Positions 3,963 through 37,566 of a stretch of DNA of 60,489 nucleotides are shown piece after piece; the stretch's first letter is position 1, and the number at the start of each line of letters is the position of its first letter. The notes under the pieces were generated by a model that ran no database searches, was not told the DNA's origin, and saw only the letters and a program-made list of their open reading frames with translations. The position numbers were made by a program, and so were the translations under genes. The DNA is from an uncultured Candidatus Actinomarina sp. Its GTDB lineage: Bacteria > Actinomycetota > Acidimicrobiia > Actinomarinales > Actinomarinaceae. The stretch covers positions 1-60,489 of the forward strand of contig CACJPC010000005.1 in assembly GCA_902595195.1 (NCBI GenBank), written 5' to 3'.

Positions 3963-4054
3963 CGGAGGTGGACAGGAATCGAACCTGCCAAAGACTTTTA
4001 CACCTTTCAACAGTTTTGAAGACTGTGGAGCCCACCAGGCGCTCATTCACCTCC
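3963..4054 (-). tRNA. selC: tRNA-Sec (anticodon TCA)
   Basis: Read on the minus strand this is a 92-nt tRNA. The acceptor strands GGAGGTG and CACCTCC pair. The anticodon stem ACAGT/ACTGT encloses the loop CTTCAAA, giving anticodon TCA. The D-arm is long (GAGC/GCTC plus CC/GG), as expected for tRNA-Sec. A long variable arm has an AAAG/CTTT stem, and the T-arm contains GCAGGTTCGATTCCTGT. The discriminator base is G and the 3' CCA is not encoded. Length, anticodon and the two long arms together identify the selenocysteine tRNA, so the organism should make selenoproteins. No selA, selB or selD and no interrupted selenoprotein frame is seen in this window. Confidence 0.94.
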
Positions 4055-32439: not shown

Positions 32440-32520
32440 ATAAGAAGGTTACCTAATTTAGTAATTTAATCTTTTACATATGTCCTTTGAAAAAAAAATT
32501 TCTTTTATTACCATTAGGTT

Positions 32521-32639
32521 TGCATATAGAGAGGAAATCCTCAGCAACCTAGAATACCAACTAAGGTGCTTTTTGATGTGGTTTTACAACAAAAAATGGT
32601 ATTTCCAAAACTTTTGCAAAAAATTTAATTGGAGGAAAA
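32521..32639 (+). promoter_or_regulatory. SAM riboswitch (SAM-I/IV-variant-like) controlling metK
   Basis: The aptamer core runs from CATAT (32523-32527) to ATGTG (32576-32580), which pair as P1. Inside are the P2 hairpin GAGGA/TCCTC (32531-32542), the SAM-I-type strand AGCAACC and P3 ACCT/AGGT followed by TGC. The long SAM-I P2/kink-turn and P4 are absent, which suits the compact SAM-I/IV variant class. Downstream, ATTTCC (32601-32606) can pair either with the aptamer GGAAAT (32533-32538) or, through TTTCC, with the ribosome site GGAAA (32634-32638). Ligand binding should therefore hide the ribosome site and shut off metK. Class assignment is by eye. Confidence 0.85.
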
Positions 32640-33753: not shown

Positions 33754-33761
33754 TTTCATAA

Positions 33762-33875
33762 GCATATAGAGAAGGTTAAGACCTCGGCAACCTGGAAGAC
33801 TATCCAAGGTGCCTGAAGATGTGGCAGAAATGCAACTAAATAGTCAAAGTCCTTCTCCAAATTTAAGGAGAAATA
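33762..33875 (+). promoter_or_regulatory. SAM riboswitch (SAM-I/IV-variant-like) controlling metY
   Basis: This is the same fold as the metK leader. P1 is CATAT (33763-33767) with ATGTG (33819-33823). The P2 hairpin is AGGT-TAAG-ACCT, the core strand is CGGCAACC, and P3 is ACCTGG with CCAAGGT followed by TGC. The expression platform is clear. CCTTCTC (33851-33857) is a perfect 7-nt complement of aptamer GAGAAGG (33769-33775), and the overlapping TTCTCC (33853-33858) pairs perfectly with the ribosome site GGAGAA (33867-33872). When SAM stabilises the aptamer, the anti-ribosome-site strand is freed to block translation. Confidence 0.88.
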
Positions 33876-33876
33876 T

Positions 33877-35157
33877 ATGAAGTTTAATTCAAAACTAATA
33901 CATGCAGGTTGGGATTCTGATGAAAATTCTGAAGGATCAATAACAGTTCCTATTTACAGAACAACAGCTTATCAATTTAACAATACCGAACATGCTGCAA
34001 ACCTATTTGGCTTAAAAGAGTTTGGCAATATTTATTCCAGATTAGGCAACCCAACAGTTGGAGCATTGGAAGCCAGATTAACAGCCCTTGAAGAAGGTGC
34101 TATGTGTGTAGCATTATCTTCAGGAACCTCTGCTGTTATGTACTCGCTAATCAACATCATGAGTCAGGGGGACAACTTTGTTACTGCTAATCAACTTTAC
34201 GGTGGAACCTATACAATGTTTGATAATATCTTGCCAGAATATGGTATCAATTCTAAAAAAGTCGACATTACTGATTTAGAAGCTGTTGAAGCAGCAATTG
34301 ATGAAAAGACTCGAGCAATTTATTGTGAAACAATAACCAATCCAGGATTAGTTGTTGCTGACATATCTGCTTTAGCAGATATCGCACATTCAAAGGGAAT
34401 TCCTTTAATTGTTGACGCTACCTTCACAACATCAGCCATACTAAAACCCTTTGAATATGGTGCGGACATCGTTGTCTACTCATTAACTAAATGGATGTCT
34501 GGTCATGGAAGAGTTATTGCAGGTGCAGTGATTGAAAAAGGTGGCTTTGATTGGGGCAATGGTAATTTCCCACTTTATGATAAACCCGATACCAGCTATG
34601 GAGGTATGAGATGGGGCCATGACCTTGGTGATTTAGGAAATGTTGCATACTCACTCAGATTGAGAACAGTTCCTTTGAGAAATCTTGGTGCAAATATGTC
34701 TCCAGATACTGCTTTTGAAGTTATGAGTGGCCTTGAAACACTAGCTCTAAGAATGGAGCGTCATTGTGAAAATGCAATTAAAGCTGCGGAATATTTGACT
34801 GAACACGAGCTTGTTGAGTGGGTTAGGTTTCCTGGACTCAAAGATGATCCAGCATATGATCTGTCAGAAAAGTATTTAAAAGGTACTGGTGGAACAATGG
34901 TGGTCTTTGGGATTAAAGGCGGAAAAGATGCTGGACAAAAATTTATAGACAATTTAAAAATGTTCAGACATGTTGCTAATGTTGGAGACACTAGATCTTT
35001 AGCTATTCACCCAGCAACAACTACACATTCCCAATTAGATGAAGACCAACTTATTGCAGCAGGATCACCACCTGAACTAATAAGACTTTCAATAGGTATT
35101 GAAGATATTGACGATATCATTGAGGACCTTTCACAAGCACTTGAAAGTACAAAATAG
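33877..35157 (+). CDS. metY: O-acetylhomoserine sulfhydrylase
   Basis: MetY joins sulfide (or methanethiol) to O-acetylhomoserine with PLP to give homocysteine (or methionine). The 426-residue protein is of normal length for the long MetY group. It starts FNSKLIHAGWDSDENSEGSI and has YSRLGNPTVGALEARL. The PLP lysine is in VVYSLTKWMSGHGRVIAG. The C-terminal region has NVGDTRSLAIHPATTTHSQL, the MetY/MetC family signature. The ribosome site GGAGAA is masked by the riboswitch. metX overlaps or directly follows its end. Confidence 0.95.
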   Translation: MKFNSKLIHAGWDSDENSEGSITVPIYRTTAYQFNNTEHAANLFGLKEFGNIYSRLGNPTVGALEARLTALEEGAMCVALSSGTSAVMYSLINIMSQGDNFVTANQLYGGTYTMFDNILPEYGINSKKVDITDLEAVEAAIDEKTRAIYCETITNPGLVVADISALADIAHSKGIPLIVDATFTTSAILKPFEYGADIVVYSLTKWMSGHGRVIAGAVIEKGGFDWGNGNFPLYDKPDTSYGGMRWGHDLGDLGNVAYSLRLRTVPLRNLGANMSPDTAFEVMSGLETLALRMERHCENAIKAAEYLTEHELVEWVRFPGLKDDPAYDLSEKYLKGTGGTMVVFGIKGGKDAGQKFIDNLKMFRHVANVGDTRSLAIHPATTTHSQLDEDQLIAAGSPPELIRLSIGIEDIDDIIEDLSQALESTK

Positions 35158-36220
35158 CTTTAATAAGTTTTTCATTCCACAATTTACACTTGAAACGGGT
35201 GAGATACTTAAAGAGGTTGAAATTGCCTACTCAACATATGGAGAATTATCAAAAGATGGAAAAAATGGTGTCTTAATCTTCCATGCTTTAACTGGAAGCC
35301 AATTATTGTCGGGCAACTTTTCTAGTGAAGATTTTCCAGAAATTCCTTGGAATGAAGAACTAGAAACAGGTTGGTGGGACGAATTCGTTGGACCAAATAA
35401 AATAATTGATACCAACAAATACTTTGTTGTTTGTGCCAATTACTTGGGTGGGTGTTACGGCTCTACTGGTCCCAACTCTAAAAATTCCACCACAGGAGAT
35501 AATTATGGATATGATTTTCCACATATTTCTTTTAAAGATATTGAAAAATCGCAAAAATTACTCCTAGACCATATTGGAGTCACCCATTTAGAGGCTGTAA
35601 TTGGACCTTCTATTGGAGGGTTAATGGCTCTTGAGTTTTGTACTTTATATCCTGACTTTGTAAACAAGTTTATATCAATATCAAGTGGATATAAGCTATC
35701 TACTTTGCAGCTTTTACATAATCTTGAGCAAGGATATATATTAGATCTAAGTAAGGATTCAAGAAATCGTCAGAATGAATATCTATCTCTTGCAAGAATG
35801 ATTGCTCATAAAACATATATTTCCTTGGAGTTGCTTTCTACAAGAGCTAAAAATAAAAGCTTATATAGTGAAGATACAATTGAGGGGTTTTTAGCTACTT
35901 CACAAGAATCTTATATGATGCATCAAGGCGAAAAATTCATTGAGAGGTTTACTCCAGAATCATATAACTCAATAATTAAAGGCTGGCAAAATTTTAATTT
36001 AGAAACAGAAAGCATATATAACCTAAAAGATATTAAAACCCTTGTAATTTCTGTTGATTCAGATGTCTGTTTCTATCCTGAAGAGCAAAAAGAATTTGTT
36101 GAAATTTTAAGAGAATATAAAATAGACACTGAATATAAAATCATCGAATCTACTAAAGGCCATGATTGTTTTCTTCTAGAGCCACAATTGTTTAAAAAAA
36201 TAATTAAAAACTTCTTATAA
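35141..36220 (+). CDS. metX: homoserine O-acetyltransferase
   Basis: MetX acetylates homoserine to supply the MetY substrate. The alpha/beta-hydrolase fold protein has FTLETGEILKEVEIAYSTYG at its start. The nucleophile serine is in GPSIGGLMALEF, the acid is in VISVDSDVCFYP and the His is in GHDCFLLE. I place the start at TTG 35141 (359 residues), which overlaps the metY end by 17 nt. A longer frame from TTG 35099 would add 14 unrelated residues. There is no ATG before the conserved region. MetX and MetY form a two-step direct sulfhydrylation route under one SAM riboswitch. Confidence 0.92.
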   Translation: MKVQNSFNKFFIPQFTLETGEILKEVEIAYSTYGELSKDGKNGVLIFHALTGSQLLSGNFSSEDFPEIPWNEELETGWWDEFVGPNKIIDTNKYFVVCANYLGGCYGSTGPNSKNSTTGDNYGYDFPHISFKDIEKSQKLLLDHIGVTHLEAVIGPSIGGLMALEFCTLYPDFVNKFISISSGYKLSTLQLLHNLEQGYILDLSKDSRNRQNEYLSLARMIAHKTYISLELLSTRAKNKSLYSEDTIEGFLATSQESYMMHQGEKFIERFTPESYNSIIKGWQNFNLETESIYNLKDIKTLVISVDSDVCFYPEEQKEFVEILREYKIDTEYKIIESTKGHDCFLLEPQLFKKIIKNFL

Positions 36221-36249
36221 ACCTCGCGAAAAATAGATTAGTAAATATC

Positions 36250-36278
36250 TTGCATAAGAGTAAAAACTAACGTATATT
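36250..36278 (+). promoter_or_regulatory. sigma-70-type promoter of a candidate small RNA gene
   Basis: The -35 is TTGCAT (36250-36255), followed by an exact 17-nt spacer and the -10 TATATT (36273-36278). It predicts transcription from about 36285. This is the best complete promoter in the window and lies in the metX to exonuclease gap. Confidence 0.65.
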
Positions 36279-36284
36279 TATAGA

Positions 36285-36367
36285 ACACTATCGGAAAAGA
36301 AATCGCAAGATAGAAAAGAAGATAGAACAGAAAATCCCGAAGGGTCGCAAGATCAATCGGGATTTTT
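36285..36367 (+). ncRNA. candidate free-standing small RNA, about 83 nt
   Basis: The interval runs from the predicted start (7 nt after the -10) to the T-run of an intrinsic terminator. Two small hairpins share the same loop sequence TCGCAAGAT: ATC-GCAA-GAT (36302-36311), which can extend to CTATC/GATAG, and GGTC-GCAA-GATC (36343-36354) at the tip of the terminator. Both loops are GNRA tetraloops. No open frame with a ribosome site is present. The exonuclease gene downstream has its own -10 box, so the RNA is probably independent rather than a leader. I do not recognise it as a known family. Confidence 0.55.
36331..36367 (+). terminator. intrinsic terminator of the candidate small RNA
   Basis: AAAATCCCGA (36331-36340) pairs with TCGGGATTTT (36357-36366) over 10 bp, capped by an inner GGTC-GCAA-GATC hairpin and followed by a T-run. 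It could also stop read-through from metX. Confidence 0.8.
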
Positions 36368-36393
36368 GCTTTCCACGGTTTATTTTCATGAAG

Positions 36394-36399
36394 TAAAAT
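36394..36399 (+). promoter_or_regulatory. -10 box of a predicted leaderless promoter for the exonuclease gene
   Basis: TAAAAT, six bases, then the ATG at 36406. It sits after the small RNA terminator, so the exonuclease is transcribed separately. Confidence 0.5.
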
Positions 36400-36405
36400 C
36401 AAATT

Positions 36406-37239
36406 ATGGAGCTATATATTGTTGATGGTACATATGAATTATTTAGGTCGCATTTTGGTTACCCAAGTAGAATTTCACCAGGTGGATCTGAAGTTGGAGC
36501 ATTAAAGGGATATATAACTCACCTCAACTCCTTAAAAAAACAATATAAATATTTGTGCGTATCTTTTGATTCAACAGTTGAGTCATTTCGTAATGAACTT
36601 TATGACGGTTATAAATCCAGTAACGATATTGATCCGGATATCCTTAATCAATTTCCTCTAGCAGAGGAAGTAACAAAATTACTTGGAATAACCCTTTTGT
36701 CTATGAAGAAATATGAAGCTGATGATGGAATTGCTTCGGTATGTGAACAATTTAGTGACAAAAATATAAAGATCATAATTGGGTCATTAGATAAAGATTT
36801 AATGCAATGTGTAAAAGGAGATGAAGTTGTAATGTACTCGACTAGGTATAAAACTTTTACAAACGATAAAGGAGTAAAAGAAAAATTTGGTATCTTGCCA
36901 AATCAAATACCGGATTTTCTTGCTCTTACAGGAGATAGTTCTGATGGAATTCCAGGAATGAAGGGAATAGGTCAAAAGACTGCAGCTTTGCTTCTTCAAA
37001 AATATGAAAATATTGATTCAATTTTAAATGATGTAGACAATTGGAAAAAGACAGTTAGAGGTGGTGAGAGGCATGCTGAAACTATATCTAACAATTTTGA
37101 ACTTTTAAAATTATTTAAAGAACTAACAACACTAAAAAAATCTGTGAATGTTCCAAAAGACATTGAAGATTACAAAGTAAAAGACATAAATCAAAATAAG
37201 TTGATTAAATTTTCTGAAAAATACAGATTAAATATTTAG
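36406..37239 (+). CDS. 5'-3' exonuclease (PolI N-terminal / ExoIX-like FEN)
   Basis: This 277-residue flap-endonuclease-type nuclease corresponds to the N-terminal domain of DNA polymerase I. It begins LYIVDGTYELFRSHFG. The metal-binding acidic residues are in EADDGIAS, IIGSLDKDLMQCV and LTGDSSDGIPGMKGIG, the last running into the helix-hairpin-helix GIGQKTAALLLQKY. It likely acts on RNA primers or DNA flaps. It stands alone with its own predicted leaderless promoter. Confidence 0.92.
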   Translation: MELYIVDGTYELFRSHFGYPSRISPGGSEVGALKGYITHLNSLKKQYKYLCVSFDSTVESFRNELYDGYKSSNDIDPDILNQFPLAEEVTKLLGITLLSMKKYEADDGIASVCEQFSDKNIKIIIGSLDKDLMQCVKGDEVVMYSTRYKTFTNDKGVKEKFGILPNQIPDFLALTGDSSDGIPGMKGIGQKTAALLLQKYENIDSILNDVDNWKKTVRGGERHAETISNNFELLKLFKELTTLKKSVNVPKDIEDYKVKDINQNKLIKFSEKYRLNI

Positions 37240-37302: not shown

Positions 37303-37566
37303 GTGAAAAAGTTTCTTTTAATTTTGGGTTTATTAATTTTGTTCTCTCCTGCAGGAATTGTAATTGCAGATGACCATACTGAAGGAGAAGTACCAACTCC
37401 TGCGATCGTGGTTGAAGAGCCACCAGAGCAAATTGAAGATGTAGCATGGACCTACAGATTTTTAATTCCAACAACTGTTGCTATAGCAACATTAGTAATT
37501 CTTGGAAACGTTATTCAATATTTCAGACAAGTAACTCGAAAAAGATATAAGGTTATAGAGAAATAA
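37303..37566 (+). CDS. small secreted/membrane protein, function unknown
   Basis: This 87-residue protein has an N-terminal signal peptide (KKFLLILGLLILFSPAGIVIA, cut before DDHTEG). A short acidic, proline-rich extracytoplasmic stretch follows (EVPTPAIVVEEPPEQIEDVA), then one membrane helix (about residues 50-70) and a basic tail (RKRYKVIEK). It resembles small accessory subunits of membrane complexes but I cannot name it. The GTG start has a TAGTCT box 6 nt upstream. It precedes tilS by 15 nt and may be co-transcribed. Confidence 0.8.
   Translation: MKKFLLILGLLILFSPAGIVIADDHTEGEVPTPAIVVEEPPEQIEDVAWTYRFLIPTTVAIATLVILGNVIQYFRQVTRKRYKVIEK

Follow-up and report, generated by a model that had tools for sequence, protein, structure and literature searches.

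The window analyzed here, a 60,489-nucleotide stretch of a Candidatus Actinomarina contig, carries a gap of 185 non-coding bases (36221-36405) between metX (35099-36220) and a gene for a 5'-3' exonuclease (36406-37239). Candidatus Actinomarina is a tiny, abundant bacterium of the surface ocean. Its genome is streamlined, having few paralogous genes and intergenic spacers with a median of 2-3 bp (PMC7771536). The exonuclease (PF02739/PF01367) is a stand-alone protein that most resembles the N-terminal portion of DNA polymerase I, and its gene was found in only 16 of 42 Actinomarina genomes, alongside the full-length polymerase. An earlier note on this DNA had proposed that these roughly 185 bases hold an independent RNA gene of about 83 nt with a full promoter, the motif TCGCAAGAT twice in GCAA-capped hairpins, and a 10-bp terminator. 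The length of the gap, the promoter elements, both copies of the motif, and both arms of the terminator stem were all found as proposed, and the length of the RNA is consistent with the predicted start and terminator (Table 1). The upstream box, the further copies, and the covariation described below go beyond that note.

Table 1. Features of the predicted small-RNA gene between metX and the exonuclease gene (positions in the window).
Feature	Position	Strand	Remarks
Complete unit: box, promoter, RNA, and terminator	36217..36372	+	duplicated; second copy 100% identical (G000:C1:77529-77684)
Upstream box CTCGCGAAAAA (YTCGCGAAAA)	36223..36233	+	conserved; center 23 nt 5' of -35, about -59 from predicted start
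-35 element TTGCAT	36250..36255	+	TTGC in nearly all copies
-10 element TATATT	36273..36278	+	17-nt spacer to -35
Predicted small RNA, about 83 nt	36285..36367	+	start inferred from -10, end from terminator
Hairpin 1	36288..36325	+	fold and alignment of copies
Hairpin 1, outer stem, 5 bp	36288-36292/36321-36325	+	
Hairpin 1, internal loop, symmetric 9x9, A-rich	between 5-bp and 3-bp stems	+	
Hairpin 1, inner stem, 3 bp	36302-36304/36309-36311	+	
Hairpin 1, GNRA loop (GCAA here)	36305-36308	+	
Hairpin 2, intrinsic terminator with U-rich tail	36331..36366	+	fold and alignment of copies
Hairpin 2, 10-bp stem, AAAATCCCGA / TCGGGATTTT	36331-36340 / 36357-36366	+	
Hairpin 2, conserved 2x2 internal loop, then 4-bp stem	internal loop 36341-36342/36355-36356	+	
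Hairpin 2, GNRA loop (GCAA here)	36347-36350	+	
Repeated motif TCGCAAGAT	36303-36311 and 36345-36353	+	

The region 36285-36372 folds with -25.3 kcal/mol (z -4.7), and none of 200 shuffled sequences folded equally well. A simple consensus scan passes neither the promoter nor the terminator: the -35 element matches TTGACA at only three of six positions, and the terminator has a 16-nt loop. Because the consensus match fails, both elements were judged by their conservation in 47 copies; this conservation, not the consensus, supports the full promoter and the terminator. The exonuclease gene had also been credited with a -10 box of its own; a match is present (36370-36399), but it is weak (9/12).

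We aligned 45 distinct sequences of the RNA over 80 columns. Standard base pairs filled 98.9% of the 989 pair cells, compared with 26-50% in slid controls, and the terminator stem was 100% paired. Two-sided changes were found in 6 of the 22 pairs: pair 16-25 is A-U in 23 sequences and G-C in 22, and pair 54-71 occurs as A-U, G-C, and G-U. That few pairs vary reflects the similarity of the copies, whose mean column identity is 91%. All 45 sequences retain GNRA loops, GCAA or GAAA in the first hairpin and GCAA, GGAA, or GAGA in the second. The invariant columns are those of the stems, the GNRA caps, and the internal loop of the terminator; the A-rich strands of the other internal loop are variable, and in L040 and its relatives one base is deleted on each side of this loop with its symmetry retained. 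No reading frame is open throughout the 45 sequences, and their lengths of 78, 79, and 80 nt shift the frames, indicating that the gene is not protein-coding. Between the window and its relatives G009, G005, G003, G004, G025, G033, and G029, the RNA is 91-100% identical, versus approximately 72% for the adjacent exonuclease gene, which agrees with the earlier suggestion that the structure is under selection. Loss of the hairpins with retention of the flanking genes, named in the same note as evidence against the RNA, was looked for in the relatives, and the outcome did not refute the RNA gene, although some relatives that retain other copies lack the one at this locus. Thus, at the level of sequence, the locus combines a conserved promoter and terminator, a structure with compensatory changes, and a non-coding character, as expected of an independent sRNA gene.

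The covariance search in related genomes that had been suggested as a check was performed with a model of the RNA (R1), which matched 36 of the 42 genomes of the order Actinomarinales, including all eight high-quality ones; the six genomes without a match are all incomplete. There are one to four copies per genome, counts that are lower bounds because several contigs end inside a copy (G034:C6, G025:C3, G001:C7, G026:C5). The window genome (G000) has three, namely the copy in the window, one identical to it over 156 nt (C1:77529-77684), and a diverged one (C1:76851-76947). The conserved block comprises precisely the box, promoter, RNA, and terminator, and the flanks differ between copies. In a DNA search of 59 relatives, the unit was found in most genomes of the same genus, and the remaining sampled genera yielded none that was convincing. 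The exact terminator-hairpin pattern was present in 44 contig stretches among 84,980 species genomes, with titles of Actinomarina, Actinomarinales, OCS155, or unclassified Actinomycetota/Acidimicrobiia, and it had no exact match in viral contigs.

The copies occupy two loci. At locus 1 the unit lies after metX, and this copy is missing in some relatives that retain others; in G002, G008, G013, G014, and G060, the unit is lacking and a small gene comes directly after metX. Locus 2 has one to three copies next to nfo and a phosphoglycerate-mutase-like gene; depending on the genome, the separating gene codes for an acetyltransferase of the GNAT type, a cytochrome P450, or a membrane protein of 176 aa. 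In G005 (L024:1898-4204), the membrane protein gene and the sRNA unit have been duplicated jointly in tandem. The two to four copies per genome, the presence or absence of the copy at locus 1, and the assembly breaks at copies could also point to a small DNA repeat (REP/MITE-like), or to a mere terminator of the met operon, with no RNA function. This explanation is scarcely credible, since the copy number is low and stable, the stems show compensatory changes, nearly all copies have the promoter box at the exact spacing, neither terminal inverted repeats nor target duplications were seen, and even the diverged copies retain the folded structure (z -3.5 to -6.1).

The unit lies 40 nt upstream of the start of the exonuclease gene in the window and likewise upstream of it in relatives that have the gene where the contig continues, an arrangement that would suit a leader or attenuator of the exonuclease gene acting by conditional termination. 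However, G024, G026, and G061 carry the unit after metX with the exonuclease gene absent, and other copies precede a convergent GNAT acetyltransferase gene, a P450 gene, or different genes. The strength of the terminator stem is also invariant, and no conserved alternative antiterminator was seen. Because the 3' neighbors differ between copies and some of them are convergent, the RNA is not the leader of one gene; a riboswitch or attenuator would be expected to precede one regulated gene in every case and to be collinear with it, which these copies are not. We regard conditional termination as highly improbable. Strong support thus exists for the view that the gap encodes a real small-RNA gene family of Candidatus Actinomarina, predicted to be independently transcribed as the earlier note had proposed: the RNA is multi-copy, has its own conserved promoter and terminator, shows covariation, and in its copies elsewhere is not a leader.

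The upstream box YTCGCGAA was present in 47 of 47 aligned copies, and in 46 of them its center lay 23 nt before the -35 element, with variable DNA in between. In G000 this 8-mer is limited to eight places. Three are sRNA promoters, two are neighboring sites in the dnaA/rpmH intergenic region, and the others lie ahead of a whiB-like gene, ahead of nrdJ, and within a coding region. The longer form YTCGCGAAAA was found at 237 sites in the 42 genomes versus 81 for the reversed control. We inspected 40 of these sites from 17 genomes, leaving out the sRNA promoters already listed, and 36 belonged to three promoters, those of dnaA/rpmH (12), nrdJ for class II ribonucleotide reductase (13), and the whiB-like gene (11); one more was a truncated sRNA copy, and three lay elsewhere. 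The protein families were confirmed by Pfam and NCBIfam. The center of the box is 22 nt before a candidate -35 element at nrdJ, about as in the sRNA, and 13 nt before it at whiB, one helical turn less; these spacings fit a putative activator on one face of the DNA. At dnaA there are usually two boxes, with a spacing of exactly 20 bp. Because the box is common to the dnaA/rpmH, nrdJ, and whiB-like promoters, the assignment of the sRNA to a small replication-linked regulon together with these genes is well supported as far as the box is concerned, and the RNA seems to share its activating DNA signal with the genes for replication start and DNA building blocks.

Two of these promoters showed additional features. 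The rpmH-dnaA double box, 20 bp apart at G000:C1:117660-117687 and in 15 other genomes, is a candidate replication-initiation control site. In the nrdJ promoter (L135 around 1501-1600, and relatives), the new box is accompanied by an NrdR-box-like palindrome, ACACTACATTTAGTGT, downstream of the -10 element, so that this promoter seems to be under two controls.

Most bacterial sRNAs of this size work by antisense pairing, which favors a reading of the same gene as a trans-acting antisense sRNA whose A/G-rich internal-loop strands pair with pyrimidine-rich ribosome-binding regions, for example those of replication, growth, or envelope mRNAs. EcpR1, which represses dnaA mRNA, also speaks for it (PMC4414408). 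We predicted targets among the regulon members and the window genes by a crude duplex energy. In G000 the best of 61 duplexes was formed with the start region of a small gene at 37303 (-24.4 kcal/mol), but the same duplex reached only -10 to -14 kcal/mol in relatives with the same locus, and this target was rejected as a species-specific, unconserved U-rich match. For the 5' regions of dnaA, nrdJ, and whiB (10-12 genomes each), the mean z was about 0; pairing with the dnaA mRNA 5' region in this crude test gave a mean z of -0.2 to 0.5 over 10 genomes. The target prediction that had been advised for the single-stranded A-rich middle thus returned no conserved pairing with co-regulated mRNAs. 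Moreover, the candidate seed strands vary between copies and the structure does not. We consider antisense action, which would then be on other mRNAs, somewhat unlikely.

The explanation that we judge probable is a multi-copy family of independently transcribed sRNAs with a box-activated promoter and an intrinsic terminator, whose activation would be linked to replication; that it acts by binding a protein is the weaker part of this explanation and, taken by itself, slightly less likely than not. The explanation draws on the gene layout, the paralogy, the conserved structure, and the promoter box common to dnaA/rpmH, nrdJ, and the whiB-like gene. A putative activator bound at the box (about -59, the position of a class-I activator) would turn the RNA on together with the replication genes, the RNA would bind a protein via its two near-identical GNRA-capped hairpins, and this binding, rather than antisense pairing, may feed back on the replication or growth program. 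Protein binding by the twin hairpins is the mode that we tentatively prefer, because the strands that could serve as seeds vary, the invariant positions are those of the stems, the caps, and the terminator internal loop, and there is no pairing signal with co-regulated mRNAs. Outside the sRNAs, the genomes contain hardly any copy of the cap RTCGCAAGAYC; the apical hairpin was rejected as a shared site in mRNA leaders, since in three genomes it was found only inside the sRNAs and at one other place (G064). The earlier note had also considered that the GNRA loops could dock into a receptor, an idea that gained no support.

A more specific version of protein binding, which is speculative and in our estimation rather doubtful, is that one putative factor reads the CGCGAAAA boxes at dnaA, nrdJ, whiB, and the RNA genes, and that the twin GNRA hairpins bind and restrain this factor or a partner. 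If true, this would be an undescribed replication-control circuit of the Acidimicrobiia. Its origin would then predate Actinomarina, since a GC-rich genus of the class (f27/g51) has a structured RNA between genes whose terminator hairpin is similar, a double box upstream of it, and a box before a whiB-like gene (L170). When R1 was applied to 296 genomes of the class, matches outside the order were confined to six genomes of this genus (E 0.001-0.008). The best of them, E 0.0012 in one genome, is not significant alone among about 254 genomes outside the order, so that homology of the RNA is a lead only. The double box was the reason to retain the lead: about 450 nt upstream of the terminator hairpin CCCGAGAGGGCGCAAGCUCACUCGGGG, which itself resembles that of Actinomarina, there are two CGCGAAAA boxes at a distance of exactly 20 bp.

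Side observations on f27/g51 were as follows. G105 and G176 (L157-L186) have 67-81 CGCGAAAA[AT] sites per genome versus 2-5 for the reversed control, and many such sites stand at the start or the end of a ~230-bp intergenic repeat (CCGGTGCTCCGCACCGGGCCCTCCCCCGCCACCACC ... GTGTGACAGTTTCAACCCC) that is dispersed and sometimes in tandem. The genus has a conserved, strongly folded intergenic RNA candidate of ~400 nt (L095:1140-1640, L096-L100; z -7.1) between a RecB-like gene and an acyl-CoA synthetase gene, with no Rfam match.

The Actinomarina RNA matched no family of Rfam 15 at gathering or relaxed thresholds (best BTnc005, 21.3 bits versus a threshold of 174.8), in keeping with its proposal as a new RNA, and 6S covariance models gave no match. 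A likeness of GUCGCAAGACC to helix 9 of E. coli 16S rRNA was considered and dropped, the motif search having given no sign of an rRNA copy. 6S RNA and Ms1, the latter in actinobacteria, are growth-linked structured bacterial RNAs; they are far longer and bind RNA polymerase, whereas the RNA described here has about 85 nt and no Rfam match. Nearest in the proposed mode are the protein-titrating sRNAs of the CsrB/RsmZ type, which are likewise stand-alone, often multi-copy, and built of repeated near-identical hairpins, but they carry GGA in the hairpin loops, unlike the GNRA of all apical loops here, and again there is no Rfam match. Nearest in theme is EcpR1, a cell-cycle sRNA of Sinorhizobium meliloti that uses a conserved loop for base pairing with dnaA and gcrA mRNA (PMC4414408). 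It shares with the present RNA an independent gene, two stem-loop domains, and a tie to dnaA and the cell cycle; in contrast, the loops here are GNRA caps, the search for pairing with dnaA found none, what ties the RNA to dnaA is the common promoter box, and there is no sequence relation (no Rfam match). In ecology and multiplicity, the nearest is Yfr103, a multi-copy sRNA of marine Synechococcus/Prochlorococcus (PMC5069720), which also has several paralogous stand-alone genes in a marine bacterium but is longer (290-328 nt), cyanobacterial, and of another structure. None of the compared systems is a family match. A figure of the Actinomarinales genome paper has an ncRNA track, and this RNA is not described in the accessible part of that paper (PMC7771536). 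Our literature search found no description of the RNA or the box. Within these sources the RNA family is previously undescribed, and an earlier, unnamed sighting of the transcript, for example in the Nature 2009 report on ocean small RNAs (cited in PMC5069720), is possible.

The presence of up to four copies of an RNA gene of about 85 nt in a streamlined genome implies a real benefit. The common box names a four-member regulon and makes replication control in minimal cells directly testable, and the covariance model and promoter motif can now be used to search expression data. Elsewhere in the window, two SAM-I/IV riboswitches (32517-32606 and 33757-33849) lie upstream of metK and metY, and a selenocysteine tRNA (3964-4054, minus strand) indicates that a selenoprotein system has been retained, at least in part, despite the streamlining of the genome.
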